A stretch of DNA of 20,047 nucleotides from the IMG/VR virus record IMGVR_UViG_3300025141_001030, positions 1 to 20,047 of that record; one strand, given 5' to 3'. Under the pieces are notes generated by a model, which saw nothing but the letters and a program-made list of their open reading frames with translations, did not search any database and was not told the origin of the DNA. This stretch comes from a virus. A program made the position numbers and the translations under genes. Every line of letters begins with the position of its first letter. Position 1 is the first letter of the stretch. This document shows, in pieces, positions 2,158 through 19,863 of this stretch.

Positions 2158-2244
2158 TTATCTCTTAGTTCGTACTGAATCAGTGTCATCAATATCATAC
2201 GTCTTCTCCTGCTTTGATACGTTGTCGTATTGTAAAGTTGCCAT
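2158..2244 (-). CDS. 28-aa protein, miniature paralogue of the upstream 224-aa protein's N-terminus
   Basis: The frame runs ATG to TAA and encodes 28 residues starting MATLQYDNVSKQEKTYDID. It fits between the stop at 2256 and the next start at 2151, with gaps of only 11 and 6 nt. The peptide aligns with the first residues of the 224-aa protein just upstream (MATTLYEDVSKSMTHFDIQE): MAT, a Tyr, VSK, DI and a later acidic residue all coincide. It is therefore either an independently translated capping or decoy peptide, or the remnant of a duplicated gene. Polar, no membrane segment. The similarity and packing make it more believable than a random short frame. Confidence 0.6.
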   Translation of the reverse strand: MATLQYDNVSKQEKTYDIDDTDSVRTKR

Positions 2245-2255
2245 GATTCATAGGA

Positions 2256-2930
2256 TTACTCTGCGAACACTGGATAAGCTTTAAAGTCGCTACCGTCATA
2301 AATTACATGCAATATACCCCCTGCTGCTGACACATAGTCCCCTGAACCGGTAAGTAAGATTGAAGCATAATCGCCAGCACCAGCTTGATTATCTTTAACA
2401 GTCACTACTCCATCAAACTGTAGGAAGAAGTCTTCACCACCGTAGAAGCCTATATCACTAATCCGGTTAATTTGAGTTGTACCAGTAACATCAAAGAATT
2501 TACCAGCCAACGGAATATCAACATCATTCGTACTAGCTATATCTACTCCTTTCCCTTTTCTCTCAATATCACTTACAATCTCCCAAAGTCCTTCTTCATC
2601 CTCTGCTACCCAAACAGATTGTATTACTAAAGTTTCACCTGCTCTAATCATATCTAGGGAAGTCTCACCCTCTATACCAATTAAATCGTTCTGAGCTACA
2701 TTAGGAGTGACTGTTAATTTATTATCAGGAGCGAAACTAATATCGAAATCATGAATAATAATTCTCTGTGACCGCTCACTAATTGCTGGTAAATTTAAAA
2801 CTCCATCAGATTCAATCGTCATCAATAAAAATACATCACTAATTCGTGTAATAGTATACGGCATGTCTGCCTCCTGTATGTCGAAATGCGTCATACTCTT
2901 CGATACGTCCTCATATAATGTTGTAGCCAT
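2256..2930 (-). CDS. Putative virion protein, beta-rich, unknown family
   Basis: A 224-aa acidic protein with no signal peptide or membrane segment. Alternating hydrophobic/polar strands and loops rich in Gly, Asp and Thr (GFYGGEDFFLQFDGVV, ILLTGSGDYVSAAGGILHVI) suggest all-beta domains like those of phage fibre or baseplate-associated proteins. The first residues recur in the 28-aa gene immediately downstream. It starts 12 nt after the LamG-like gene, with TTTAATTACACT before the ATG. Position between a lectin-like protein and the membrane trio argues for a structural or receptor-binding accessory role. No catalytic motif seen. Confidence 0.75.
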   Translation of the reverse strand: MATTLYEDVSKSMTHFDIQEADMPYTITRISDVFLLMTIESDGVLNLPAISERSQRIIIHDFDISFAPDNKLTVTPNVAQNDLIGIEGETSLDMIRAGETLVIQSVWVAEDEEGLWEIVSDIERKGKGVDIASTNDVDIPLAGKFFDVTGTTQINRISDIGFYGGEDFFLQFDGVVTVKDNQAGAGDYASILLTGSGDYVSAAGGILHVIYDGSDFKAYPVFAE

Positions 2931-2942
2931 AGTGTAATTAAA

Positions 2943-4907
2943 TTAGATAGTTATTGAGTCTGCTGTTGCGGCTACTATTGCCTCAAGATTAAATCCTGCA
3001 AAAACTGGATAATATAAAGTCGGTTCACCTTTCGTTGTTGGCGTAATATTAAAGGTCAGTACTGAATTCTTTACGCCTGGCCAATCATCTTCTCCTAAGA
3101 ATATCCATTCATTCACTTGCTGGTCTGATAGCGTCCCTAATGCACCAGATAACACGATGTCAAATGTGATACTTGCACTACCTTCACCGGCCCCCGATAA
3201 CGTAGTAACTCTAATCGCCTCAACTGAAACAAATAAATCAATAGCATCTCCCAGAGAAGTTAGCCCCATAGTAACGGTTGCTGCCTGGAATATTTCATAA
3301 CGTCTAGCTTGAACAATAGCTACATCAGTATTACCTTCATCATCTAATGGTGTATTACCATAAGAGCCTTGCGACCATGCAAGATCTTTCTCTTCATCAA
3401 AGAATCCAAATTCATCCATATTCCCTACAAAGTTCTCAGACCAAGCTCCATCATAGTCTCCCATTAAGATAAACTGATCGTAGTCTGAATAGTTGTCAGT
3501 ACCGTCTGAGGTTGTTGTATCCTCTGATACACCATCCACATATAATGTATAAGCATCTGTACCATCAAACGTAACCGCTATATGATGCCAGGCATTTGTG
3601 CTGATAGCTGAAGACTGTAGTTCAAACTCATCCCCTTCATCACCCTCAACATTAATCCGCATTGAAGAGTCTATAAACATGAACATCGCATCTGACCCAT
3701 TGGAGAAAGTACACAATGTTTCATCTCCAGCAATACCCGGATCTCTCTGTATGAAGAAAGAAATTGTAAAGTCTCCACCTGCAAAGTTAGATGTACAATC
3801 AAAGACTCTACCGACATCCGCTGCACCCTCTAAAGCTTGCACCCCTGAGAATATTGCATCCCCAGCCGCAACGTATGTTGGCGAGCCTGCGTCAGCAACA
3901 TCAGGATTATCAAAAATGTATTCTTTCCTATCTCTTAAATCTCCATCAAATCTCAACCAAGCTAAACAACTTGTGTCTTCAGCAGTAATATTCGTGTAAT
4001 CAATCGGCTGATATGAAACAAAGTTTCCAGCGTTGTATATAGAATCATGCCAAGCTTCAGTTTTCGCTGCATCGAAAATTCCGATCTCATCAATCACAAC
4101 ATCAGCTTTAGAACCTCCACCTCCAGCTTCATCTCTTAATAGGTAGATTCCGTTAATCGTACTGTAATTATACGTAGCCCCTTCCACATCTGTAACGGTA
4201 GCTAGAGCATCAACATATAAGGAAACTGTTCCATTAGTTGCATGTACAAGAGTCACCTGATGGAAAACACTCGTACCATGTGTAATTGTTCTAGTCACTG
4301 TCCATTTTGCCGCAGGTACTGAATCGTAATAAGTAGCCGTAATATCGCCAGCATTAATTATAATCTCGATGTAATCATTGCCAGAAGTATTAGCTAATTC
4401 TAGTAATGTCTCCCCTGTCGCTGCTGCATTAGCTTTATATGCAAAGGAAATAGTCCAAGCTGCTGCATTTGCAAAACCAGTGAATGTAGTGGCTGAGGCT
4501 GATTTACCTCCATCACTATCGAATGCGTATCCAATAGTACCTAATACAAACGTATCAAAGTCCGGAGTTAGATTTACACTACCAATCGAATCGTCACAAT
4601 CCCTTGCAAATTCATACCAATGTCGCAAGTCATCATCAAGAGTGGTTTCCTGAATCGACTTATAATAACCTGAATAAAATCCGTTTGCAGCTTTAGAAGC
4701 CCAGGTTGCTCCTACTGCTTTAGAAGCATAATTTCCTTCTGTCCCAGCTTCAACATCAAAGTTGTCGTGGAAATTTGCTCTAGGATCAAATAAATTAATA
4801 TCATCCGCTAATTTTGCTATTGAGAGTTTCTTAACAAGTTCAATGTCGTCGGTGATGACTCGACCAGAATTTCTTGTTGCCTCAACTCCTAAGCTTAAAT
4901 ATGACAT
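2943..4907 (-). CDS. Large virion protein with two LamG/ConA-like lectin domains, probable receptor-binding or fibre protein
   Basis: A 654-aa protein. Residues about 85-305 and 310-515 are two similar LamG/concanavalin-type jelly-roll domains. Both carry the signature order: a hydrophobic strand (WTISFAYKA; FTISFFIQR), an H-V-H-type strand (FHQVTLVHATNGTVSLYVDA; WHHIAVTFDGTDAYTLYVDG) and the closing I/M-D-E-I/F-G-I/F-F strand (VVIDEIGIFDAAK; NMDEFGFFDEEKD). A C-terminal beta domain (about 530-654) follows. This fold in phage particles usually binds surface glycans. It begins in a TAATG overlap with the ConA-like 246-aa gene, so the two are made together. Role in host adhesion is inferred; the ligand is unknown. 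Confidence 0.85.
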   Translation of the reverse strand: MSYLSLGVEATRNSGRVITDDIELVKKLSIAKLADDINLFDPRANFHDNFDVEAGTEGNYASKAVGATWASKAANGFYSGYYKSIQETTLDDDLRHWYEFARDCDDSIGSVNLTPDFDTFVLGTIGYAFDSDGGKSASATTFTGFANAAAWTISFAYKANAAATGETLLELANTSGNDYIEIIINAGDITATYYDSVPAAKWTVTRTITHGTSVFHQVTLVHATNGTVSLYVDALATVTDVEGATYNYSTINGIYLLRDEAGGGGSKADVVIDEIGIFDAAKTEAWHDSIYNAGNFVSYQPIDYTNITAEDTSCLAWLRFDGDLRDRKEYIFDNPDVADAGSPTYVAAGDAIFSGVQALEGAADVGRVFDCTSNFAGGDFTISFFIQRDPGIAGDETLCTFSNGSDAMFMFIDSSMRINVEGDEGDEFELQSSAISTNAWHHIAVTFDGTDAYTLYVDGVSEDTTTSDGTDNYSDYDQFILMGDYDGAWSENFVGNMDEFGFFDEEKDLAWSQGSYGNTPLDDEGNTDVAIVQARRYEIFQAATVTMGLTSLGDAIDLFVSVEAIRVTTLSGAGEGSASITFDIVLSGALGTLSDQQVNEWIFLGEDDWPGVKNSVLTFNITPTTKGEPTLYYPVFAGFNLEAIVAATADSITI

Positions 4908-5647
4908 TAGTATCGTGGGTTAGTTAGTACTTTCTTATGAGAATAGAAATCTACGTACATAAATTTAGATCCAGACGCATAAGAAATTCTTCTCGACAAC
5001 AATACTCTATCCATTGACCTCGTTGTCGTCGTTGGAATATTAGTCGTATGTGTTGCTACTACTGTACCATCAATCTTGAACACTACACTAGTTGCGTCCG
5101 CATTTACTATAATCTCAAATTTATGCCAATCAGTATCCACTACCTCACTCGTTGCTGTTGTAGTTGATGTGCCGCTCCGTCTCGTAGTAACTCTCCAATT
5201 AGGCGACTCATCAAAATTGTATTCAAACCAAATACCGTCTGGCCAAGAACTTATCGCACTCCAACTAGTTGCATATCTATACCCCATATATGAAGTCATA
5301 ACATTCCCAGCTGTAGATAAACTCTGTATCCGTGTAATCCATGTCTGCGTATCTTCACCATCTCCTAATAAGAATGATCCATATAAACCTGTAGCTAAAG
5401 TACAGTAATTATTTAAACCATTTGTGCCAAGCTTCGCTATACCTGGATGATCTGTAAAATCACTTGGACTAGCTACAAAACCTACTGCGGAACCTGAATG
5501 AAATGCAACCCAGGGATCAACTGTACCTGAATGATATGTAATGAAATCATCGTAAAAAAATACAACTTTATACTGCTCATCTGGCGCAATGTAACCTGCT
5601 TCGCCAGCACTACTACCTCCCGATGATGGGTTCAATCCTAGTCCCAT
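4907..5647 (-). CDS. ConA-like jelly-roll virion protein
   Basis: A 246-aa protein. After a Gly/Ser-rich N-terminal tail (about residues 1-25) comes one predicted lectin-like jelly-roll. It has an opening strand with YDDF, an aromatic core (GIWFEYNFDESPNW) and the typical back-sheet strand DWHKFEIIVNADATSVVFKI followed by DGTVVATHT. This pattern is frequent in phage head-fibre or tail-associated proteins that bind carbohydrate. No catalytic residues of a glycosidase stand out. It is translationally coupled to the two-LamG protein and follows the 115-aa gene by 4 nt, so these three probably build one surface appendage. Confidence 0.8.
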   Translation of the reverse strand: MGLGLNPSSGGSSAGEAGYIAPDEQYKVVFFYDDFITYHSGTVDPWVAFHSGSAVGFVASPSDFTDHPGIAKLGTNGLNNYCTLATGLYGSFLLGDGEDTQTWITRIQSLSTAGNVMTSYMGYRYATSWSAISSWPDGIWFEYNFDESPNWRVTTRRSGTSTTTATSEVVDTDWHKFEIIVNADATSVVFKIDGTVVATHTTNIPTTTTRSMDRVLLSRRISYASGSKFMYVDFYSHKKVLTNPRY

Positions 5648-5651
5648 AGCT

Positions 5652-5999
5652 TTACACAGTTATGAAATAAAATTGAAGAGTTCCTGCTGAAGCATTACCC
5701 GCTACATATAAATTAGCTATATTAGCTACACCAATTACAATGCGTTCTCCAGCTTCCATTACGAAATATGAATCGCCTCCTGCTGGATCAGAATTAGCCG
5801 ATACCCTCAAATCTGTGCTTGGCCTCAATGAAACCTCAGCTGCATTCGTAGGAATAGCTAAAGTAAGATTGGCTGTAGTATACGCTAATGGTGAATCTTG
5901 CGCTACTGTTGTCGCATCCGATGTTGAGATACTACTGCCTGTATGTATTCGTGGGCCATTAGCACTAGGCTTTAACCCTCCAAAAACTTTGTCTGCCAT
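5652..5999 (-). CDS. Small beta-rich virion protein
   Basis: A 115-aa Ala/Ser/Thr-rich protein with no membrane span or signal. The N-terminus (MADKVFGGLKPSANGPRIHT) is followed by predicted strands and a GGDSYFVMEAGERIVIGVAN segment. A comparable T/D-S-Y/F-V-M-x-A-G-E-R/T-I-V stretch occurs at the C-terminus of the 154-aa protein at the left end (NTSFVMANAGETIVLRAI), so the two may share a small domain. It lies 6 nt after the 188-aa gene and 4 nt before the ConA-like gene. Its start has the same CTTTAACGTAAT sequence as the coiled-coil gene. Function inferred only as particle component. Confidence 0.75.
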   Translation of the reverse strand: MADKVFGGLKPSANGPRIHTGSSISTSDATTVAQDSPLAYTTANLTLAIPTNAAEVSLRPSTDLRVSANSDPAGGDSYFVMEAGERIVIGVANIANLYVAGNASAGTLQFYFITV

Positions 6000-6572: not shown

Positions 6573-6616
6573 TGTATAAAATTAAAGAATATATATTTAA
6601 CGACTTGTCCAACCCT

Positions 6617-6631
6617 CTTCTTGCGAAGAAG
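6617..6631 (-). promoter_or_regulatory. Short hairpin in the spacer between two capsid-region genes
   Basis: On the minus strand CTTCTT-CGC-AAGAAG forms a perfect 6-bp stem with a 3-nt loop. It is not followed by a T-run, so it is not a standard intrinsic terminator. It may be an RNA processing site or a partial attenuator that sets the ratio of capsid to appendage genes. It lies in one of the few sizeable gaps of the late operon. Confidence 0.4.
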
Positions 6632-6644
6632 GAAGGATAAATTG

Positions 6645-7136
6645 TTAAGCACAATCTAAGAAAGTTGCCACAGTATCATCGCCATCGACATCAGCAGCTA
6701 CAGCCACCCCAAGAGGTTTGTATGTAGAAGCTGTACCAGCAGTGACGCTGTTTACAACACCATCAGCTCCAAGGATGATAGTATCGCCATCAGCGATATC
6801 ATCATCTCCATTGGTATTAACAGTAGCGTGATAACCGTAACATTGCACCCATCCATAAGATGAAGCAGCAATAGCTCCGATACCAACACCAGCTGGTTGA
6901 TTTGGACTAGCATCTGAAATATCAGACGAAGCTGTTTGTCGCAACGTATCTGAATACGCTAGAGCGACACCAGAAGCCACAGTTGTATCGGCAGCAGCTT
7001 GCATGTATCTGAATCCTCGTAGAGCATTGGTTGAGTCGAACTCATACCGTAGTATCCCGACCTGCTCTTGAGCAGTGGTACTAGAGTCTGTGAGGGCAGT
7101 CTTCCAAGCTATCTCCGAAAAGATTGAAGCACCCAT
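6645..7136 (-). CDS. Probable capsid decoration/head protein
   Basis: A 163-aa protein with an Ala/Gly/Asp/Thr-rich, beta-predicted sequence (RGFRYMQAAADTTVASGVAL; IADGDTIILGADGVVNSVTA; PLGVAVAADVDGDDTVATFL). This composition and the position one gene after the major capsid protein are typical of small beta-tulip/beta-barrel decoration proteins that trim the capsid surface. No cysteine-based or catalytic motif. The start is preceded by AAATTTAATTAAGTAAT, not an SD. The 55-bp spacer before it is extremely AT-rich. Exact family not assignable by eye. Confidence 0.75.
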   Translation of the reverse strand: MGASIFSEIAWKTALTDSSTTAQEQVGILRYEFDSTNALRGFRYMQAAADTTVASGVALAYSDTLRQTASSDISDASPNQPAGVGIGAIAASSYGWVQCYGYHATVNTNGDDDIADGDTIILGADGVVNSVTAGTASTYKPLGVAVAADVDGDDTVATFLDCA

Positions 7137-11453: not shown

Positions 11454-13088
11454 TCAAGAATATATCCAATCATCTTCCCTTACAGGCTCCTTAGCTAGTA
11501 TAGGTAACGCTGCCATCTCTTCTCCAATGATCTCAATACCTGTACTCACCCAAGGCTCAACTGTCCTAGTACCAGCTCTTAACCTCTGTACCTTACTTAA
11601 CGCTGCCTGGAAATATACAGTAGAGTGGACTAAGTGCTCATGCCCCTGCTTCTCCCAACGACTCTCTGGTATACCAACCTGATTCTCCTCCGTTACCTTA
11701 TAAATATTCCCCCAATGGAAAATGAACTCCTTCAGCTCACTATCAGCATAAGACTGAGAAGATCTACCAGGTGCATTAAACACCATGTCCCCCCCCTTAA
11801 TACTAGCTACTGCCTCGTCAATTGCTTTAGTCCTCTCCATATATACAAAGCCTTGCTGCTTCTTCTCACCCCATTGATACAGCTCCTTACGCATCAAATT
11901 CTTCTTGTAAAAACAACAATAAACCTGAACTCCTTTAGGTGCTCCATTCCTCTCAATATAGTTCCTCCTGGGATATGAGTCAGGCATCGCATCAATCACT
12001 GTGACCGGCTTGTACTTCATCATTAAATTCTCTATCTCATCCCAGGTTTCAACTGAGCCTGTCTGGAATATCCCATCATGATTCCCTAATACATAATGCT
12101 TGTGATGATACCCAACATCTACCCCCATCGCATTTCGCATCTTAGGATTCTCCTCAGCTACAATATTATTGATTATCATCTCTGGCGGTACTTTGTCCTC
12201 AGATGCAATATAAGGAAGACCTAATATCATTGTATGAAATGTCTCCGGACTCTTAGTCTCCTTCAAATAAACAAGCTCCTTAGCACTCACCCAAGGACAC
12301 ATAAGCTGATTTATGTGATAGCCGTGCATCTCCTTCCCTTTCTGATTTATCACCCATTCACCGTCGTGCCTGTCTTCCTCGCTCAATGGCTGCTTGCACT
12401 TTGCACATATATATATCTTCTGGTCTTCATCAACATTTAAGTCGTAACGCAAATCCTGATAATGATTGCACCTAGAACATTGGATCATCCAACGCCTCAT
12501 ATCTGAGTTCATATACATCTGATCTATCCCTCCTGGACGGATTGGGTTGCTAAAATACCATTCACCCTTGTACTTAGACTTCTGTAGCCTAGAAGAATAC
12601 GTATCTATAGTAGCTAAGTTGGATGCGTCAACCTCATCGTATACATTTAAGTCACTGGTGTGCATGATAGCTGCCTTCTTTCCATGTGTGCCTCTGTACC
12701 AGATGAAATTATTCCCTATAGCCTTCTTTGTCAAGGTGTCAGATTTCCCCACTACACGCAGCAAGGGAGGATTATCCTCAATAATTTTGTTCACCTTAGA
12801 TGGGACGAAATCTTTTACATCATCAAAAGTGGGGAGAGTGTAAATACAGTTAAGCCCACGATGAATCGAACCATACAATGTTTTCAATATAGCTAAAGTA
12901 GACCAGCCAATCTGAGCGGATTTCATGCAGCATTGCTTCCAGTGCCAGTCCCGGTAAGGCTCAATCATGAAATAATGCTCATCGAAGCCGAGGGGATCTC
13001 CACGCTCATTCTTGAGCTTGTTCTTCAATAGCCAGCCGAGGACTGACTGGTTCAGGTCTGTGTTCTCAGGGAGATTGTTTTCTGTCAT
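11454..13088 (-). CDS. terL: Terminase large subunit, lambda gpA-type
   Basis: A 544-aa packaging motor. The ATPase part has a non-canonical P-loop K56-SAQIGWST, closely matching the lambda gpA form (KSARVGYSK) in which the invariant GK is absent, and a Walker B-like NVYDEVD at 148-154. Next comes a zinc-ribbon-like insert with Cys at 204, 207, 228 and 231 (CSRC...CAKC). The RNase H-like nuclease part shows MGVDVG with D324 and VTVIDAMPD with D366. It is the first gene of the leftward late operon, with a promoter whose predicted +1 is its own ATG. No small-subunit gene precedes it. It cuts genomic concatemers and drives DNA into the prohead through the portal encoded next. Confidence 0.92.
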   Translation of the reverse strand: MTENNLPENTDLNQSVLGWLLKNKLKNERGDPLGFDEHYFMIEPYRDWHWKQCCMKSAQIGWSTLAILKTLYGSIHRGLNCIYTLPTFDDVKDFVPSKVNKIIEDNPPLLRVVGKSDTLTKKAIGNNFIWYRGTHGKKAAIMHTSDLNVYDEVDASNLATIDTYSSRLQKSKYKGEWYFSNPIRPGGIDQMYMNSDMRRWMIQCSRCNHYQDLRYDLNVDEDQKIYICAKCKQPLSEEDRHDGEWVINQKGKEMHGYHINQLMCPWVSAKELVYLKETKSPETFHTMILGLPYIASEDKVPPEMIINNIVAEENPKMRNAMGVDVGYHHKHYVLGNHDGIFQTGSVETWDEIENLMMKYKPVTVIDAMPDSYPRRNYIERNGAPKGVQVYCCFYKKNLMRKELYQWGEKKQQGFVYMERTKAIDEAVASIKGGDMVFNAPGRSSQSYADSELKEFIFHWGNIYKVTEENQVGIPESRWEKQGHEHLVHSTVYFQAALSKVQRLRAGTRTVEPWVSTGIEIIGEEMAALPILAKEPVREDDWIYS

Positions 13089-13203: not shown

Positions 13204-13425
13204 TCGAAAATCTGCTTCAATCGTGTGTTCTTGGCTTGCACAAGCGCAATGCTCTGCGTTGACGTGCTCAAAAATTAGCACCCTCATTGTGTGCAACCCA
13301 TGTTTGCATATCATATCCACAAATTATGATGGCTTAAACAAGGGCAGAACAGGGATAGTCTTTGACAATATACATTGTGCGGGATAGGTGTAGCAAATGA
13401 GGAGGGCGAAGCAAGGGGGATTGCG
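13183..13425. repeat. Imperfect inverted repeat in the control region
   Basis: CGCAAACCCCCCT at 13183-13195 is almost complementary to AGGGGGATTGCG at 13414-13425, with one base missing and otherwise matching. Beside it, TGCTTC (13213-13218) matches GAAGCA (13408-13413). The arms flank about 210 bp without a gene. This could be a recognition site, a degraded mobile element or the boundary of a packaging site. Confidence 0.4.
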
Positions 13426-13756: not shown

Positions 13757-13972
13757 ATGAATATGAAAGCGACCCAAAACATTACAGAAGCATCAAGCAT
13801 TCAGGACTTCTCAAAAGAGGACTTAATTGAATTGCTTAAAAATGCGGTTTACCTAGTCAATAGACTAGATGAAAAGCTCGAAGATTTTGCGCCCGAATGG
13901 TACGCATGTGCTGATGATATCGCTGACTCAAGCGACTTTAGTCGCAATATAGGAGACTGGCTACTAGCCTAA
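13757..13972 (+). CDS. Small acidic protein, unknown
   Basis: A 71-aa protein starting MNMKATQNITEASSIQDFSK; the frame is open further upstream, but those codons overlap the membrane-peptide gene, so the ATG two bases after its stop is preferred. The sequence is acidic and helical (DLIELLKNAVYLVNRLDEKL) and ends NIGDWLLA. One Cys, no metal site, no membrane span. Second gene of the rightward operon; it is followed by a 55-nt gap holding a hairpin. Function unknown. Confidence 0.65.
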   Translation: MNMKATQNITEASSIQDFSKEDLIELLKNAVYLVNRLDEKLEDFAPEWYACADDIADSSDFSRNIGDWLLA

Positions 13973-13981
13973 CCTCAATCC

Positions 13982-14004
13982 TGAGCATGATTTAAAAAGG
14001 CTCA
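13982..14004 (+). repeat. Intercistronic hairpin, diverged member (R0)
   Basis: TGAGC (13982-13986) pairs with GCTCA (14000-14004) around a 13-nt A/T-rich loop. The sequence differs from the four later hairpins but occupies the same place, between a stop and the next start. Here the distance from stem to ATG is 23 nt, longer than the 14-15 nt of the others. Confidence 0.4.
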
Positions 14005-14027
14005 CCTAATCATTAAACACTTACAGC

Positions 14028-14513
14028 ATGATTTTCTTACACTTAAACAAGCAGGACTTACAGACAAACATAGAAAAAACTATCAAACAAAATGAGCTAC
14101 ATATTGAAGCCGTCGAGCTTGCAATCAAGGGGCTTGAAACAGTCAAGCACCATAAACAAATCTCTAAACGTGGACTAAACGCAATCAAGGAACTAGGGCA
14201 ATCGGCATATTTTGAACTTGAATTTACTCCACGCCTGAAATTATGGCTTACTAATCGCACCTATGAAGCAAACAGCGACTATTTTGCAGACTATGAGCCG
14301 ACAATCTGGTTTAAAAGCGAAGATGGATACCCTGAAATTATTCAAAATTGCCATGATTATATCGAGGGAAGACATGAGGCACTAGCACAACTCAAAGCGG
14401 ATCTAGAAAATATCGATCAAATCCTAAAAGAATCCGAAGAGTTAGAGCAAGCCTATAAAAAGCTAACAGAATCAATCCATTATACAACACGCAAGCAATT
14501 AAATTTTAACTAG
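14028..14513 (+). CDS. Helical hypothetical protein
   Basis: A 161-aa protein, mostly helical. Residues about 5-45 (LNKQDLQTNIEKTIKQNELH; LAIKGLETVKHHKQ) and 115-155 (HEALAQLKADLENIDQILKE; SEELEQAYKKLTES) form two coiled-coil-like arms. They flank a middle segment with aromatic residues (YFELEFTPRLKLWLTNRTYE; YFADYEPTIWF). No catalytic motif or membrane segment. Its TAG stop is the left edge of hairpin R1. The layout suggests a small protein-binding factor, perhaps an inhibitor or nucleic-acid mimic, but that is conjecture. Confidence 0.75.
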   Translation: MIFLHLNKQDLQTNIEKTIKQNELHIEAVELAIKGLETVKHHKQISKRGLNAIKELGQSAYFELEFTPRLKLWLTNRTYEANSDYFADYEPTIWFKSEDGYPEIIQNCHDYIEGRHEALAQLKADLENIDQILKESEELEQAYKKLTESIHYTTRKQLNFN

Positions 14514-14539
14514 CCCCAACTAATAGAGGGCTTAACAAA
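14512..14539 (+). repeat. Intercistronic hairpin repeat R1
   Basis: AGCCC pairs with GGGCT around the loop CAACTAATAGA, followed by TTAACAAA. The stop codon TAG of the preceding gene provides the first bases of the stem. The stem ends 14 nt before the next ATG at 14547. Same core (TAGAGGGCTTAACAAA on the 3' side) as R2 and R3. Confidence 0.75.
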
Positions 14540-14546
14540 CTATAAA

Positions 14547-15017
14547 ATGAGAACTATTGAAATAAAACTATACAAATTCGAGGAACTATCACAAGAGGCC
14601 AAAGACAAGGCCATTGAAGATCATTGCGGAATCAATGTTGAATACTGGTGCTGGTGGGATCATATCCAAGACGAAGCCAAAGAGCTCGGACTAGAGGTTG
14701 AGAAGTTCCACCTAGACCATAGAACTATCAACGGAAAACTTACAGAGGATCCCCATGAGGTAATCAGGCGAATAAAAGCTAATCATGGGGAAAGCTGCGA
14801 AACATACAAAACGGCCTTACACTTTGAAACACAACTGGGATTAAATCAGGATATTGCAGACGAGGACTCTATCACACAAGAATTTGAAAGCGCACTACTA
14901 GAGGACTACTTGTCTATGCTGAGAAGTGAGTATGAGTATCTCACTAGCTTTGAAACGATCGAGGATACACTACGGGCCAACGGCTACGATTTTACAGTAG
15001 ACGGTACACTTTACTAA
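14547..15017 (+). CDS. Conserved phage hypothetical protein (MRTIEIKLYKFEEL family)
   Basis: A 156-aa acidic protein. The N-terminus (IKLYKFEELSQEAKDKAIED) and an internal CWWDHIQDEAKELGLEVEKF, with later HGESCETYKTAL and YLSMLRSEYEYLTS, match a family I know as recurrent but uncharacterised in phage genomes of many hosts. It is sometimes labelled antitoxin-like in automatic annotation. I see no DNA-binding or enzymatic motif. Residues cluster in acid-rich helices, compatible with DNA mimicry or inhibitor roles. The start has hairpin R1 upstream. Family recognition is fairly firm; function is open. Confidence 0.8.
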   Translation: MRTIEIKLYKFEELSQEAKDKAIEDHCGINVEYWCWWDHIQDEAKELGLEVEKFHLDHRTINGKLTEDPHEVIRRIKANHGESCETYKTALHFETQLGLNQDIADEDSITQEFESALLEDYLSMLRSEYEYLTSFETIEDTLRANGYDFTVDGTLY

Positions 15018-15021
15018 TCAC

Positions 15022-15053
15022 TTGCCCTCTTTAATTAGAGGGCTTAACAAAAA
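15022..15053 (+). repeat. Intercistronic hairpin repeat R2
   Basis: GCCCTCT (15024-15030), loop TTAATT, AGAGGGC (15037-15043): a perfect 7-bp stem, followed by TTAACAAAAAA. The 3' arm is the same as in R1, R3 and R4 while the 5' arm differs, yet pairing is kept and even longer. The base of the shared GGGCT lies 14 nt before the ATG at 15059. Confidence 0.75.
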
Positions 15054-15058
15054 ACAAA

Positions 15059-15274
15059 ATGAAAACTAAAACAAAAACATTATATCACGTATTCACGAAT
15101 GGCAACGATGACTGGACTGCTACGCTTAAAGAGGCGCAAGCAATTATATCAGACTGGCACAAAGACGGAGCAACCGAGCTTCGGATTTATGAGGAAACAT
15201 ATACCGACTATGGAAAAGATACAGAGCAAATGACCGAGGATTGCATATATTCACTAGGTAGCTTCCCATCATAA
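15059..15274 (+). CDS. Small hypothetical protein
   Basis: A 71-aa protein beginning MKTKTKTLYHVFTNGNDDWT, with a helical segment (LKEAQAIISDWHKDGATELR) and an acidic, Tyr/Thr-rich C-terminal part. The pattern strand-helix-strand (YHVFTNG, AQAIISDWHKDG, ELRIYEE) suggests a small alpha/beta fold. It has no metal site or membrane span. It sits between hairpins R2 and R3 in the rightward operon. Function not recognised. Confidence 0.7.
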   Translation: MKTKTKTLYHVFTNGNDDWTATLKEAQAIISDWHKDGATELRIYEETYTDYGKDTEQMTEDCIYSLGSFPS

Positions 15275-15276
15275 TC

Positions 15277-15303
15277 AGCCCCACTAATAGAGGGCTTAAC
15301 AAA
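15277..15303 (+). repeat. Intercistronic hairpin repeat R3
   Basis: AGCCC pairs with GGGCT around CACTAATAGA, followed by TTAACAAA. It differs from R1 by loss of one A in the loop. The stem ends 14 nt before the ATG at 15311, and starts two bases after the TAA of the preceding gene. Confidence 0.75.
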
Positions 15304-15310
15304 AACTAAT

Positions 15311-15547
15311 ATGATTATCGATTTAATACAAGACCGACAAGCGGGCGCACCTTATAACGCTAAACAGTTCTACAATCAAGTAATGCAATACTTTGCTACA
15401 GGCTCACCAAACGCACAAGAGATTGCCGAAGCTATGGACAATGGGACAAACGATCATGTGATATACCAACTTTGCAGATACATTGCAGATAATAATTACT
15501 CGAACCATCTGGCGGTATATGTCGATGGACAAGACTGGCTCAATTAA
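15311..15547 (+). CDS. Small helical hypothetical protein
   Basis: A 78-aa protein beginning MIIDLIQDRQAGAPYNAKQF, with helices (YNQVMQYFATGSPNAQEIAE; HVIYQLCRYIADNN) and a C-terminus ending YVDGQDWLN. One Cys; no membrane segment. The helix-turn spacing is not a convincing DNA-binding motif. It lies between hairpins R3 and R4. Function unknown. Confidence 0.7.
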   Translation: MIIDLIQDRQAGAPYNAKQFYNQVMQYFATGSPNAQEIAEAMDNGTNDHVIYQLCRYIADNNYSNHLAVYVDGQDWLN

Positions 15548-15552
15548 CAATC

Positions 15553-15580
15553 AGCCCCAACTAATAGAGGGCTTTAAAAC
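15553..15580 (+). repeat. Intercistronic hairpin repeat R4
   Basis: AGCCC pairs with GGGCT around CAACTAATAGA, the same loop as R1, but the 3' flank is TTAAAAC instead of TTAACAAA. The stem ends 15 nt before the ATG at 15589. It is the last clear copy; the small genes further downstream are separated only by short A-rich gaps. Confidence 0.75.
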
Positions 15581-15588
15581 TAAACCAC

Positions 15589-15741
15589 ATGAACGATAAT
15601 CAACTAAAACATCACGTCTACTGGATTATTAAAACAATCGGCAAGATTGAAAGCTACGAGGATTTTATCAGCCAACCATTATCTAACGAGGTGATGGAGG
15701 ATATAAACGAGCTAGTCAATCATGTCAAAATCAATTACTAA
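15589..15741 (+). CDS. 50-aa hypothetical protein
   Basis: The frame ATG to TAA encodes MNDNQLKHHVYWIIKTIGKI and onward, ending NHVKINY. It is mildly acidic and helical with no membrane span. It fits exactly between hairpin R4 and the next ATG, and the same A-rich ACTAAACCAC precedes the start. Believed real because of this packing and the hairpin placement; no function recognised. Confidence 0.6.
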   Translation: MNDNQLKHHVYWIIKTIGKIESYEDFISQPLSNEVMEDINELVNHVKINY

Positions 15742-15751
15742 CAACTAAACC

Positions 15752-15841
15752 ATGCTAGACTTTCAAATCAAATTGCTCTTATGGATTATAGTGCTAGATG
15801 TAGCCGTAGTCTATGGAGCAAAATTCTTATTCAACTTATAA
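15752..15841 (+). CDS. 29-aa single-span membrane peptide
   Basis: The frame ATG to TAA encodes MLDFQIKLLLWIIVLDVAVV, then YGAKFLFNL. Nearly the whole peptide is a hydrophobic helix with one Asp in the middle. ACAACTAAACC precedes the ATG, almost the same as before the 38-aa gene downstream (ACAACTAAACCC). Together with the 32-aa peptide at the operon start it makes two tiny membrane proteins in one early operon. Function unknown. Confidence 0.55.
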   Translation: MLDFQIKLLLWIIVLDVAVVYGAKFLFNL

Positions 15842-15852
15842 TCAACAACAAA

Positions 15853-16065
15853 ATGAAAACTGAACCATTAAACCTAAAAGAGATATACAGAATGAAACGC
15901 TACTTATTAAACAGAGCTTTCAAACAATACTTTGACACAATTTTTGACAACTTAGACGAAGACGAATGCTTTGAATTAGCAACAGCATATCAGACATTGA
16001 TAAACGACTACACAAATATTACAGAGGAGCAACTTGAAATGCTTCACAAATCAATTAACAACTAA
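15853..16065 (+). CDS. Small helical hypothetical protein
   Basis: A 70-aa protein starting MKTEPLNLKEIYRMKRYLLN. The frame is open upstream, but an earlier start would overlap the 29-aa membrane gene; ATCAACAACAAA before this ATG matches the start context of the operon. Residues are helical and acidic toward the C-terminus (NLDEDECFELATAYQTLIND; ITEEQLEMLHKSINN). No motif recognised. Confidence 0.65.
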   Translation: MKTEPLNLKEIYRMKRYLLNRAFKQYFDTIFDNLDEDECFELATAYQTLINDYTNITEEQLEMLHKSINN

Positions 16066-16069
16066 ACCC

Positions 16070-16186
16070 ATGAAAAAATATACTTGCGAAGAGTGCGGAG
16101 AGAAAACAACCGATAGCCACTACAGAAAAGACGAAAACGAAACAGTCTGCGAGGACTGCTGGCACGAGTACATGTTCAACCTCTAA
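16070..16186 (+). CDS. 38-aa zinc-ribbon protein
   Basis: The frame ATG to TAA encodes MKKYTCEECGEKTTDSHYRK and onward to a second pair in VCEDCWHEY. Four Cys in two CxxC knuckles (residues 6, 9, 27, 30) spaced 17 residues apart make a compact zinc ribbon. Histidines at 17 and 32 are nearby. Single zinc-ribbon peptides in phages can bind nucleic acid or host transcription or translation factors; the target here is unknown. It starts 4 nt after the preceding stop. Confidence 0.7.
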   Translation: MKKYTCEECGEKTTDSHYRKDENETVCEDCWHEYMFNL

Positions 16187-16206
16187 AAACTTTTAATCCC
16201 TATATA

Positions 16207-16383
16207 ATGACTAAGAAAATTTTTCACCTCGAAATCCAAGTGATTGAAACTGGACACTTAACGATTGAGGCTGAGACAATCTTTGAAGCAAAAGAACAAG
16301 CTCGCTATTTATGGCATAGTGGAGCCAAAAAAGTAGGCTCCACAGAATTCAAAGTGCTATCCTCCGGAACTGATACCCTCTAA
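16207..16383 (+). CDS. 58-aa hypothetical protein
   Basis: The frame ATG to TAA encodes MTKKIFHLEIQVIETGHLTI, then EAETIFEAKEQARYLWHSGA, ending SSGTDTL. A strand-strand-helix-strand pattern (HLEIQVIE, HLTIEAE, EAKEQARYLWHSG, TEFKVLSSG) suggests a small compact alpha/beta fold. It is the last plus-strand gene before the convergent junction. No function recognised. Confidence 0.65.
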   Translation: MTKKIFHLEIQVIETGHLTIEAETIFEAKEQARYLWHSGAKKVGSTEFKVLSSGTDTL

Positions 16384-16405
16384 AACGCACGAGGATCGTT
16401 TCTAA

Positions 16406-16464
16406 GCGACTCAATTCCCTAGGTGGCACATTGAGTCGTGCTACCCCCGAAAACGTCGTAGGGA
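16406..16464 (+). ncRNA. Candidate folded RNA / pseudoknot at the convergent junction
   Basis: Three complementary pairs interlock. CGACTCAAT (16407-16415) pairs with ATTGAGTCG (16430-16438), 9 bp. TCCCTA (16416-16421) pairs with TAGGGA (16459-16464), 6 bp. GGTGGCAC (16422-16429) pairs with GTGCTACC (16438-16445), 8 bp with one G.T. The last two nest, and the first then pairs the apical loop with upstream sequence. The one G.T is a G.U only in plus-strand RNA, so the fold would belong to the 3' end of the rightward transcript. No T-run follows. Confidence 0.5.
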
Positions 16465-17108: not shown

Positions 17109-18905
17109 TTATTCATTGTGCCACATGCTTTGCCTGTCTTGATAGTCCTCATGTGATAAGAACTCTCCTTTGTAAAAATACCAATGCCCATACCCCTGAA
17201 AACCGTCAAATCTATCTCGGTCTACCTTGATGCAAAACCTAGCAAGGTCTTCTTTGTCTGGCGTTCCTTCCCCTGAAAACTTCTTATACCTGCCAACTAT
17301 CAAGGCCCACAAAGCTATATTCGCAAGTTGCCCTGTCCCCTCTGCATCGGCCATAGTGAGCTGTTCCGGTGGTCTAACTTCTTTTTGTGATGCCTTCCCG
17401 ATGTGGTGAACTCCGATTATGCAGCAGTTTTTTTTCTCAGCGAAATCTTTGAGAAACTGCGCCAACAGGGCTTGTTCATTGTACTTGTCTTGATCTGAGC
17501 CGCCTCCGCCAATCCGATTAAAATTATCAACTATCAATAAATCTGGCTTGCGCTGCTTGACTATCTGCTCCACCCACTCCCTAGATGCCCCCCTGCCTAC
17601 GTTATCGGGAGCTTCAATAATATCTAAATTCTCATGTGTCTGAGCATCCATACCCTCGATCACCCTATCCAGCTTATCATTGTCTTGATCCACCTCTGTC
17701 GAAGTATACCCCAATACTGCCCTAGCCCTACGCTCAATCAAACTAGCCCCCGTCATCTCTAAAGACAAATAAACAACCTTGCTCCCCTGCTTTGCGTTAT
17801 TCAGGGCAACCGAATACGTAAACTCGGTTTTGCCGGAATTGTAAGTCCCAACGACTAAACCAAATTGTGTCTTTTTGAGCAACGGTAATTTAACAAAAGC
17901 GTGCTCTCCTACGCTCCAGTCTAGTGTTTCGGTTCCGTAATACGCCTTAGCCTGCTGCTTGATGTCATCTATAGAATCGACCTTTACCGCCCCCACGTCA
18001 CTAATGCCGAATTGCTCCCTCATCCATCGCTTGGCTTCTGGAAACGAGCACTTGTTAAAATACATAACCATCTCATAAGTGTCCCCTCGTGGCGGCTTCT
18101 CTGAGAACCTATTGATATAATTCCCCTCGAAACAAATCTTCATCGAGGTTGATTTGCCATCCTCAAACACAACATCTTTCTCGTAGTATACGCCTAGCTT
18201 ATCCAGTACATCAGTGATTGGTATGTCGTGAGCCTCCTGTTTTATTTTCTTTGACTTTAATTTCTCAGGCTTAGGTTCTACGATCTTGGCTGCAAGTATC
18301 TTATCGGCTAAGCCTGGAACTAAATCCTCATACTCATATCCCCTATCAGGTTTACACTTTGAAGATGCCTCGAAGATGTCCTCTAATGTTCCGTCCATCA
18401 TCTGCTCGACCGTTAGTCTAGTCTTAAATAGTTTTTTGTTTTTAAGGTTTGGGCTACCTACGGATCTGAATATTCTGCGTTGGCCATAGATAGATAAATC
18501 CATAGTCTCCAACTTGAGCGTTGTCTTGAATCCTGTAGCCACTGCCCTGTATTGATCAACTGTATCTTCTCTAGGCGGTAGCCCGATGCAGGCACAAGGT
18601 ATCACGATGTGGAATCCCTTGCCCCCTGAGAAGTACGGAGTAGCTATAATCTGATTCTTCCATAGATACTGATATAATTTTTGAGCATCAGTAAATGTTT
18701 TAGCTAAGTCTGTCTCGTGGTCAAAGTCGAAAGCTAGATCCATCACGTAAGGGGAGTGATAATCTTTCTCGGTGTATGTCTCAAGAGATTCAAAAGCTTC
18801 TGTGTCTGGCAAGTACCCCGCTATCGTTTCTGCAACCTTACTTAGCTCAACCATGAGCCGAGGTTCATCGAACTCTATTTTCCTATGTGCAATTTCTCTA
18901 TACAT
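17109..18905 (-). CDS. Fused AEP-type primase and DnaB-like helicase
   Basis: A 598-aa two-enzyme protein for unwinding and priming at the fork. Residues about 1-185 are an archaeo-eukaryotic primase/polymerase palm: D60-F-D62 in MDLAFDFDHE, SGGKGFH at 93-99, and the third motif D136 with GQRRIFRSVGS at 141-151. Residues about 228-300 (VLDKLGVYYE; GDTYEMVMYFNKCSFPEAKR) resemble the second half of a CHC2 primase zinc domain, but with the zinc-binding Cys mostly lost. Residues about 335-590 are a RecA-fold helicase: Walker A GTYNSGKT (353-360), YLSLEM (379-384), Walker B LLIVD (456-460), HH at 500-501, and KVDRDRF near the end. The ATG overlaps the initiator gene's stop (ATGTATAG). Confidence 0.9.
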   Translation of the reverse strand: MYREIAHRKIEFDEPRLMVELSKVAETIAGYLPDTEAFESLETYTEKDYHSPYVMDLAFDFDHETDLAKTFTDAQKLYQYLWKNQIIATPYFSGGKGFHIVIPCACIGLPPREDTVDQYRAVATGFKTTLKLETMDLSIYGQRRIFRSVGSPNLKNKKLFKTRLTVEQMMDGTLEDIFEASSKCKPDRGYEYEDLVPGLADKILAAKIVEPKPEKLKSKKIKQEAHDIPITDVLDKLGVYYEKDVVFEDGKSTSMKICFEGNYINRFSEKPPRGDTYEMVMYFNKCSFPEAKRWMREQFGISDVGAVKVDSIDDIKQQAKAYYGTETLDWSVGEHAFVKLPLLKKTQFGLVVGTYNSGKTEFTYSVALNNAKQGSKVVYLSLEMTGASLIERRARAVLGYTSTEVDQDNDKLDRVIEGMDAQTHENLDIIEAPDNVGRGASREWVEQIVKQRKPDLLIVDNFNRIGGGGSDQDKYNEQALLAQFLKDFAEKKNCCIIGVHHIGKASQKEVRPPEQLTMADAEGTGQLANIALWALIVGRYKKFSGEGTPDKEDLARFCIKVDRDRFDGFQGYGHWYFYKGEFLSHEDYQDRQSMWHNE

Positions 18906-19761
18906 TTTTATTTGGGATTAAGTGTTTATATTCTTTTCCATGTATGGCCGCACCCAGGATCTTGATAGCTAAGTGCATGTCCAAGTCTTCAAGTAAATCT
19001 AAATCTAGCCCCTTAACTGCCGCCTTGCCGAATAGCTCCTGATCTATAATTCCTTTGCCTTCGGGGTTCTGCCATTGCTTCTGCGTTAACCACCACGGCT
19101 CGATTAGTTCTGGGTCTATCTCATCATTCCATCCCTCATCGTTTATCCACGTAGTAGGTAGAGGTACGTACTTTACATTCTGCCATTGGTCGCATCGGTT
19201 CCGTGTTCGCATCGCCTTAACTATTTTAGGTAGCAGGCTACGTTCAAGCTTTAAGAATAAAATTCTTGCCTTCTTCTTTTTTTCCTTCCGTTTATTCAGC
19301 AGCCAATATTCAGCAAAGTCTTCATCAGTCATGAGGTCGGACACTTTCTTTTGTATAGTTTCTTTTGTAAGAGTTTCTTTTGTATCTATCTGTTTAGATA
19401 ACCCCTGACTATCTGTTTGGATAGTTTTTACTATCTGTTTAGATAGTATCTGTTTAGATAGTATCTGTTTAGATACTATCCATTCAGATAGTTTTTTATT
19501 CATGCCATACTCCTTACCTCGCTTAACGATCACATTTTTATCGAGTAGCTTCTTTAAATCTCTTGAGCAATTATGTGCTGCAATGCCTGTCATCTCCTCG
19601 AACTGACTAAGTGAGATCCAATCGGTAGGTTTGCCCCAGCCGTAGGTCTTTCTAAGGATTACCATTATCAAATTAAACTGAGATTGACTTAGTTTACTTT
19701 GAGCTAGTTTTTCTAGTATCGTATGTTTAATCGGAGTTGATTCTTTTGGGAGTTTACGCAT
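18898..19761 (-). CDS. Replication initiator, phage O-protein type (winged helix), with internal origin
   Basis: 287 aa from the ATG at 19761. The frame is open 12 codons further, but those codons fall in the structured leader and the M-R-K-L start fits the family. Residues about 8-95 match the N-terminal domain of lambda O-type initiators: an F/L-N-L-I-M-V-I-L-R-K-T-Y-G-W core, DWISLSQFEEMTGI, then the recognition-helix region AAHNCSRDLKKLLDKNVIVK and GMNKKLSEWI. Residues about 91-125 are encoded by the iterons and repeat S-K-Q-I-L. A basic helical stretch (LNKRKEKKKKARILFLKLER) and an acidic C-terminus follow, where helicase loading would be expected. It binds the iterons in its own gene and should load the DnaB-like helicase of the next gene. 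Confidence 0.88.
   Translation of the reverse strand: MRKLPKESTPIKHTILEKLAQSKLSQSQFNLIMVILRKTYGWGKPTDWISLSQFEEMTGIAAHNCSRDLKKLLDKNVIVKRGKEYGMNKKLSEWIVSKQILSKQILSKQIVKTIQTDSQGLSKQIDTKETLTKETIQKKVSDLMTDEDFAEYWLLNKRKEKKKKARILFLKLERSLLPKIVKAMRTRNRCDQWQNVKYVPLPTTWINDEGWNDEIDPELIEPWWLTQKQWQNPEGKGIIDQELFGKAAVKGLDLDLLEDLDMHLAIKILGAAIHGKEYKHLIPNKNV
19345..19384. repeat. Three direct repeats TTTCTTTTGTA in the origin
   Basis: Identical 11-bp copies at 19345-19355, 19359-19369 and 19374-19384, spaced 14 and 15 bp start to start. One strand is almost all pyrimidine. They adjoin the iterons, where lambda-type origins have the AT-rich unwinding segment. In the protein they encode the T-K-E-T repeats. Confidence 0.65.
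19387..19490. repeat. Replication origin: six palindromic iterons inside the initiator gene
   Basis: Six copies of TATCTGTTTAGATA or close variants, at 19387, 19410, 19432, 19447, 19462 and 19477 (14 bp each). Copies 1, 3, 4 and 5 are identical in the core; copy 2 has one change and copy 6 three. Each is an inverted repeat, TATCT-GTTT-AGATA. The last four are spaced exactly 15 bp, the first three 22-23 bp. Placement inside an O-type gene beside an AT-rich tract is the lambda origin design. Confidence 0.8.
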
Positions 19762-19779
19762 ACAAAAATATATTAAACA

Positions 19780-19863
19780 CAAGTACCCCCTCCACAAAAA
19801 ACTCCACGCATCGTGCGAAGGGGGTGCTTGAATTGAATATAAAATTGTTCATGTTGCGTGGAG
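19780..19863 (-). promoter_or_regulatory. Structured leader of the replication operon
   Basis: Two interleaved stems can form. CTCCACGCA (19802-19810) is complementary to TGCGTGGAG (19855-19863), 9 bp. CAAGTACCCCCT (19780-19791) pairs with AGGGGGTGCTTG (19819-19830), 12 bp with one G.T on the plus strand (A.C on the minus). In the minus-strand leader TGCGTGGAG is followed by six T, then GTGGAGGGGG, so GTGGAG occurs twice and CCTCCAC upstream could pair with either copy. This resembles an attenuator or switch before the initiator gene, or an operator in DNA form. Confidence 0.45.

Follow-up and report, generated by a model that had tools for sequence, protein, structure and literature searches.

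A hairpin of 20–22 nt, of the form AGCCC...TAGAGGGCT, precedes four consecutive, unrelated small genes of this phage at a nearly constant distance from the start codon. The four copies (R1–R4) are a real, discrete repeat of ordinary size, whose register with the start codon is unusual in a phage without Shine–Dalgarno (SD) sequences. The hairpin is probably a reusable leader element, with the putative function of helping to start translation, or of insulating it, gene by gene. We consider it quite possible, short of probable, that R1–R4 represent a single start-associated leader element, present four times and acting as RNA, a role suggested by position and predicted folding.

The window, meaning the whole stretch of DNA analysed, is a complete viral contig record of 20,047 bases. 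Its rightward cluster of ten small genes (13757–16383) is flanked on one side by a leftward head and packaging block with the terminase gene (11454–13088) and on the other by a leftward replication block encoding a DnaB-like primase-helicase (17109–18905) and an O-like initiator (18898–19797). Five TGA stops in the window and a terminase ending at the same place as its relatives L009 and L010 point to the standard genetic code, and recoding was rejected on these grounds. The four proteins encoded downstream of R1–R4 are mutually unrelated when compared with one another; their coordinates and those of the hairpins are collected in Table 1. Inside the O-like initiator gene, iteron-like 22-nt repeats (ACTATCTGTTTRGATAGT, 19408–19496) encode SKQIL repeats and mark a probable replication origin of the lambda O-like type. 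An inverted repeat, CGACTCAAT...ATTGAGTCG (16404–16440), stands where the plus-strand cluster meets the leftward replication block and is a possible two-way terminator, one without a clear U-tract. Between two head-region genes, a hairpin (CCTTCTTCGCAAGAAGAGGG) lies on the minus strand at 6573–6644; L009 and L135 carry different hairpins in a possibly corresponding gap, so that, assuming the gaps correspond, structure may persist there while sequence changes. Before the plus-strand cluster, at ~13385–13420, a dense cluster of non-coding changes separates the window from its relative L008; the two contigs are otherwise near-identical.

Table 1. Hairpins, leaders, genes and junctions (window positions unless another locus is named)
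Feature	Position	Strand	Remarks
R0 junction	13973–14027	+	no copy of the R1–R4 element; no significant fold
R1 hairpin	14512–14532	+	AGCCC-CAACTAATAGA-GGGCT; 14 nt to ATG 14547
R1 spacer	14533–14546	+	A-rich unpaired leader TAACAAACTATAAA; no SD
Gene after R1	14547–15017	+	156 aa; PHROG 5162-like, function unassigned, relatives in many phages
R2 hairpin	15023–15044	+	7-bp stem GCCCTCT-TTAATT-AGAGGGC at 15024–15043; GGGCT 14 nt from ATG 15059
Leader equivalent to R1 spacer	15045–15058	+	A-rich; no SD
Gene after R2	15059–15274	+	71 aa; no family
R3 hairpin	15277–15296	+	AGCCC-CACTAATAGA-GGGCT; 14 nt to ATG 15311
Leader equivalent to R1 spacer	15297–15310	+	A-rich; no SD
Gene after R3	15311–15547	+	78 aa; no family
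R4 hairpin	15553–15573	+	identical to R1 across 21 nt; 15 nt to ATG 15589
Leader equivalent to R1 spacer	15574–15588	+	A-rich; no SD
Gene after R4	15589–15741	+	50 aa; no family
Hairpin-less junction	15742–15751	+	10-nt gap; A-rich leader of the same kind
Hairpin-less junction	15842–15852	+	
Hairpin-less junction	16066–16069	+	
Hairpin-less junction	16187–16206	+	
L199 Twister-P5 ribozymes	329–399, 717–789, 4092–4156, 4477–4539, 6715–6769	+	positions in L199

The core 10-mer TAGAGGGCTT has four exact occurrences in the window, each on the plus strand and each at one of the R1–R4 junctions, against 0.03 expected; four copies were reached in 0/100 shuffles. A sequence-only reading of this DNA had placed the GGGCT arm 14, 14, 14 and 15 nt before the ATG, and these distances are exact; it had also seen that the R1 stem uses the preceding stop codon, and the A and G of that TAG (14511–14513) do begin the 5′ arm. 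R1 and R4 agree at 21/21 nt, R3 differs by one deleted base (identity among the three, 20–21/21) and R2 matches the others at 16–17/22. Besides the stem, all four share the loop TAAT(T)AGA, with 10–11 nt between the arms in R1, R3 and R4 and 12 nt between GCCC and GGGC in R2. The hairpins are placed −1 to 6 nt past the upstream stop. The spacers that follow are 9–11/14–16 identical, with their length kept, and similarity drops to background beyond hairpin and spacer: gapped alignment gives ~50–67% likeness for the 30 bases 5′ of each hairpin and for the opening 30 bases of each gene. That the 14/14/14/15 spacing is kept although the spacer sequence has diverged supports a leader element; to the contrary, part of the fixed spacing could have been inherited when the unit was copied.

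Discrete repeats between unrelated genes would also be expected at cassette boundaries, where small genes are gained, lost and shuffled by recombination and the hairpin is a jobless passenger. In L199/L206, the junctions left by gene loss fall exactly at start-associated repeats, and the repeats of L180 keep sequence at both gene ends. We nevertheless judge a cassette boundary unlikely: R2, the divergent copy, has the best fold, the features of an integron attC are lacking, and no close relative with a different R1–R4 gene content was found, hence no exchange was seen. An integron attC (RYYYAAC...GTTRRRY, ~57 nt or longer) was rejected by inspection, GCTTAAC being present on the 3′ side only; the repeat here measures ~21 nt plus spacer.

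In predicted folds, R2 forms a perfect 7-bp stem with an energy of −13.3 kcal/mol (z −4.2, matched by 0/200 shuffles). The energies of R1, R3 and R4 are weaker, at −7.2 to −7.7, with z of −2.3 each for R3 and R4 (4/200 and 8/200 shuffles) and −1.6 for R1 (16/200). When folded in a 140-nt context, all four hairpins have GC pairs with a predicted probability near 1, and the leader from −14 to −1 is predicted to be 84–96% unpaired. When the 5′ arm was blocked in silico with the sequence unchanged, leader accessibility fell from 0.86 to 0.62 at R4 and from 0.96 to 0.84 at R3, with no drop for the R1 or R2 leaders. Since the drop is confined to R3 and R4, insulation alone is modestly supported and would be unnecessary at some junctions. 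The different 5′ arm of R2 had been taken as a compensatory change and, on that basis, as a sign that it is the structure, more than the sequence, that is conserved. Pairing is indeed kept and strengthened: R2 gains 3 bp through 5′-arm changes only, losing the outer A–U pair, and its stem is longer because the 5′-arm bases match the constant AGA. The change is one-sided, however, with GCCC/GGGC identical in R1–R4 and no pair altered on both sides. With two-sided changes at zero, the argument for structure over sequence fails as stated, and the lack of covariation leaves selection on structure undemonstrated for R1–R4.

The absence of SD sequences is borne out by a 5-nt match in 0/28 genes (0.3 expected). 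Three 4-nt matches were counted among the 28 genes (1.0 expected); the hairpin 3′ arm, whose AGGG sits just inside the scanned stretch, can explain matches of this kind. Leaders of the 28 genes are 43% A. The terminase relatives L009, L135 and L136 likewise lack an SD, and the best match of the major capsid protein (MCP), at 37%, is to a Saccharibacteria (TM7) phage that uses SD, as do several other compared phages. Another terminase relative, L010, carries an IS1595-like transposase (2179–3030, minus strand), of a type known from Candidate Phyla Radiation genomes. Together, the TM7-phage-like capsid protein and this transposase hint at a possible Patescibacteria-type host; SD-independent initiation in the host is assumed.

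Hairpins had been described before successive start codons, which holds for four junctions; the genes starting at 15752, 15853, 16070 and 16207 have none. The preceding junction, R0, had been counted as a diverged hairpin, and its membership was rejected: TAGAGGGCTT is absent, and the sole stem, GAGC/GCTC, lies 23 nt from the ATG and folds at chance level (z −0.8). Gap lengths are 33–41 nt at R1–R4 and 4–20 nt at the four following, hairpin-less junctions, a relation that is partly trivial because hairpins need room. Genes 15752, 15853 and 16070 have an A-rich leader without the hairpin (TTAACAACTAAACCC before 16070 as against TAACAAACTATAAA after R1). The hairpin is an addition to this phage's normal leader and no replacement for an SD; since hairpin-less genes of the module share a similar A-rich leader, initiation in this phage can do without it.

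The layout of the proposed leader element, which we read as putatively both insulating and positioning, is a short GC-closed hairpin, then a fixed-length, presumably unstructured A-rich stretch, then the ATG. The hairpin would fold as soon as it is transcribed, would stand where the footprint of an initiating 30S subunit ends on its upstream side, at about −15, and would seal off the message of the preceding gene, the A-rich leader staying free for SD-independent initiation. Folding would shorten the 33–41-nt gaps to an effective stop-to-start distance of 12–21 nt (gap minus hairpin), close to the 4–20 nt of the hairpin-less junctions. Each gene in a polycistronic message might be initiated independently or re-initiated, aided by its hairpin. 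The start-codon register, taken with the independent recurrence of the arrangement in another phage described below, favours a role at the leader of the downstream gene.

Lying between stop and start and near both (−1 to 6 nt; 14–15 nt), the hairpins could also serve transcript processing or stability, blocking exonucleases or marking cleavage so that each gene would have a separately stable mRNA. A related principle is at work in L199, where Twister-P5 ribozymes stand before successive starts. We hold such a role to be fairly unlikely, as a 4–7 bp stem is short for RNase III and a weak barrier to exonucleases, a role in stability would not call for a set distance from the start codon, and the module is without a ribozyme or other Rfam family. 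No match to Rfam families, ribozymes included, was found in the module at the curated or the relaxed threshold (E 1); a search of the same type is positive for the L199 ribozymes. Arrays of the Twister-P5 self-cleaving ribozyme (RF02684) comprise seven copies in G002 and five in G003, and in the L199 phage at least four of these ribozymes end ~9–12 nt before successive start codons. L206, which is related to L199, is missing two genes, with the junction inside a shared ribozyme. A further start-associated element, of 72 nt, is present in L150 in two copies that are 99% identical (4918–4989 and 5750–5821) and close with CCCCCGCTTTTT; both end just before a start codon, one of them that of a relative of the 14547 protein, and the element has no Rfam match.

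The shared loop TAAT(T)AGA, together with the stem and the restriction to a four-gene set, would fit a putative regulator site, in RNA or DNA, through which a phage or host protein controls the four genes jointly. Operator hairpins at phage start codons are known, as for the RNA-phage coat protein, which lends the idea a general precedent. DNA operators, however, do not usually vary in arm spacing as these copies do (10–11 versus 12 nt), a candidate RNA-binding protein was not recognised, and the module's first gene carries no copy; we rate a regulator site as distinctly unlikely. Lambda nut boxB (5-bp stem, GNRA-like pentaloop, upstream boxA) was rejected as well, the loops here being 6–11 nt (TTAATT or CAACTAATAGA).

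Relatives of the phage and of its hairpins were sought along several routes. Six terminase relatives are present in the viral collection (L009, L010 and L134–L136 at 54–58%, L008 at 100%). The R1–R4 cluster is absent from these six where sequence exists, and other genes take its place where sequence is available; L008 ends before the cluster. A helicase scan found no relative, nor did a terminase scan of genome contigs. The 14547 protein has 69 relatives in viral contigs; those inspected upstream show either an SD or an A-rich leader with nothing added, so this gene and the hairpin do not move together. Scanning viral contigs with a 17-mer turned up seven matches, those inspected lying in or near genes of unrelated phages; a looser hairpin pattern yielded no R1–R4-like array in the loci checked, among the matches listed; a stem-loop pattern search returned single hairpins only, in unrelated phages; and blastn of the hairpin in named phages gave matches at E ≥ 2 only. 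The covariance-model search that had been proposed, here over 36 loci with a model built from the four copies, recovered R1–R4, followed by L137 (E 0.02) and weaker single hairpins. The L137 hairpin belongs to an unrelated, SD-using phage fragment and is identical to R2 over GCCCTCTTTAATTAGAGGGCTTAACAA (27 nt), with an SD between hairpin and ATG. We read this likeness as convergence, such GC hairpins being common single intergenic features.

Unrelated phages (L137, L140, L143) have similar single GC hairpins between genes, which would be compatible with a relic intrinsic terminator (AAGCCC...GGGCTT core), harmless or read through. This is very improbable for R1–R4, since no U-tract follows the arm and the terminator-like hairpins with T-runs in Cellulophaga phage phi4:1 are at least 33 nt away from the start that follows. 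A terminator was rejected because TTAACAAA follows the 3′ arm in place of a U-tract and a terminator scan finds none at R1–R4.

Returning to the leader element, we found a comparable arrangement in L180, which is record G001 (IMGVR_UViG_3300024346_000047), 68 kb long, largely SD-less and carrying a relative of the 14547 protein. SD use in G001 is low, at chance in L217 and somewhat higher in L216. In it, AAATAAAATCCTAGAAATAGGTGTAAAATTATG, which forms a 4-bp hairpin with a GAAA tetraloop (CCTA-GAAA-TAGG) 9 nt before the ATG, is present six times, and hairpins of the TGTGCAAYGTTGCACA type (TGTGCA...TGCACA) are present four times, 18–20 nt before the ATG; both families share a single small-gene cluster and a single strand (L180/L216, G001:C1 ~57000–63000). 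A conserved sequence, TAATCTAAATGTGCA, is also seen at stop codons of G001 (L180/L216). G001 resembles the window in being SD-poor, in having a small-gene cluster with a fixed-distance repeated hairpin and an A/C-rich spacer, and in sharing the 14547 family; it differs in that the sequences are unrelated, there are two families, the distances are 9 and 18–20 nt, and its 14547 relative is hairpin-less. That unrelated sequences build the same arrangement speaks for a role linked to the start that follows, and suggests a general rule beyond one repeat.

Short words that recur at a set distance ahead of open reading frames were sought in ~216 loci and proved to be mostly SD sequences, the hairpin-like exceptions being the window, L180 and L199. 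The isolated, SD-less phage phi4:1 has no repeated hairpin family in the two stretches examined. It carries a single R-like hairpin of 7 bp (z −4.0), 13 nt before gp093, with a weak model E of 0.078, so SD-less phages may have the arrangement but do not all seem to share it. Whether SD-less phages have repeatedly evolved copy-and-paste, start-associated hairpins as a substitute ribosome landmark in small-gene clusters is doubtful; the cases would be this phage, the two G001 families and perhaps phi4:1 gp093. If true, this would be a class of translation leader previously undescribed outside the SD-containing extended start-associated repeats (ESAS) of mycobacteriophages. How starts are found in long SD-less messages is an open question, and one hairpin-leader unit pasted before unrelated genes is a compact natural experiment, small enough for reporter work.

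Among known systems, phage T4 has intercistronic UUCG hairpins. These are alike in being stable small hairpins between phage genes and differ in their tetraloop type and SD-using host. The SD-less Flavobacterium johnsoniae tunes initiation through the structure and A-richness of its leaders (PMC6847099), which fits the leader reading. This Bacteroidota, Kozak-like initiation is similar to the present case in its A-rich, unstructured, SD-less leaders; unlike here, no description of an upstream hairpin was found there, and the host of the present phage is not known to belong to the Bacteroidota. In cluster K mycobacteriophages, Start-Associated Sequences (SAS) and ESAS, the latter inverted repeats, lie upstream of the starts of many non-structural genes that are unrelated to one another; each genome has 11–19 SAS, and roughly half of these come with ESAS (PMC3203893). 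SAS are 13-bp sequences of the GGGATAGGAGCCC type with AGGAG, an SD, 3–7 bp before the start; ESAS add 17-bp arms above the SAS, lie mostly in one orientation with a variable loop and larger intergenic gaps, and are suspected of a translational role (PMC3203893). Like them, R1–R4 are inverted repeats immediately upstream of starts, repeated before unrelated genes. Unlike them, R1–R4 have arms of 5–7 bp rather than 17 bp, number four copies, show no sequence relation, and come without SAS, with a TAACAAA-type spacer and no 5-nt SD in 28 genes. R1–R4 are not a member of this family; in layout, SAS/ESAS are their closest published parallel.
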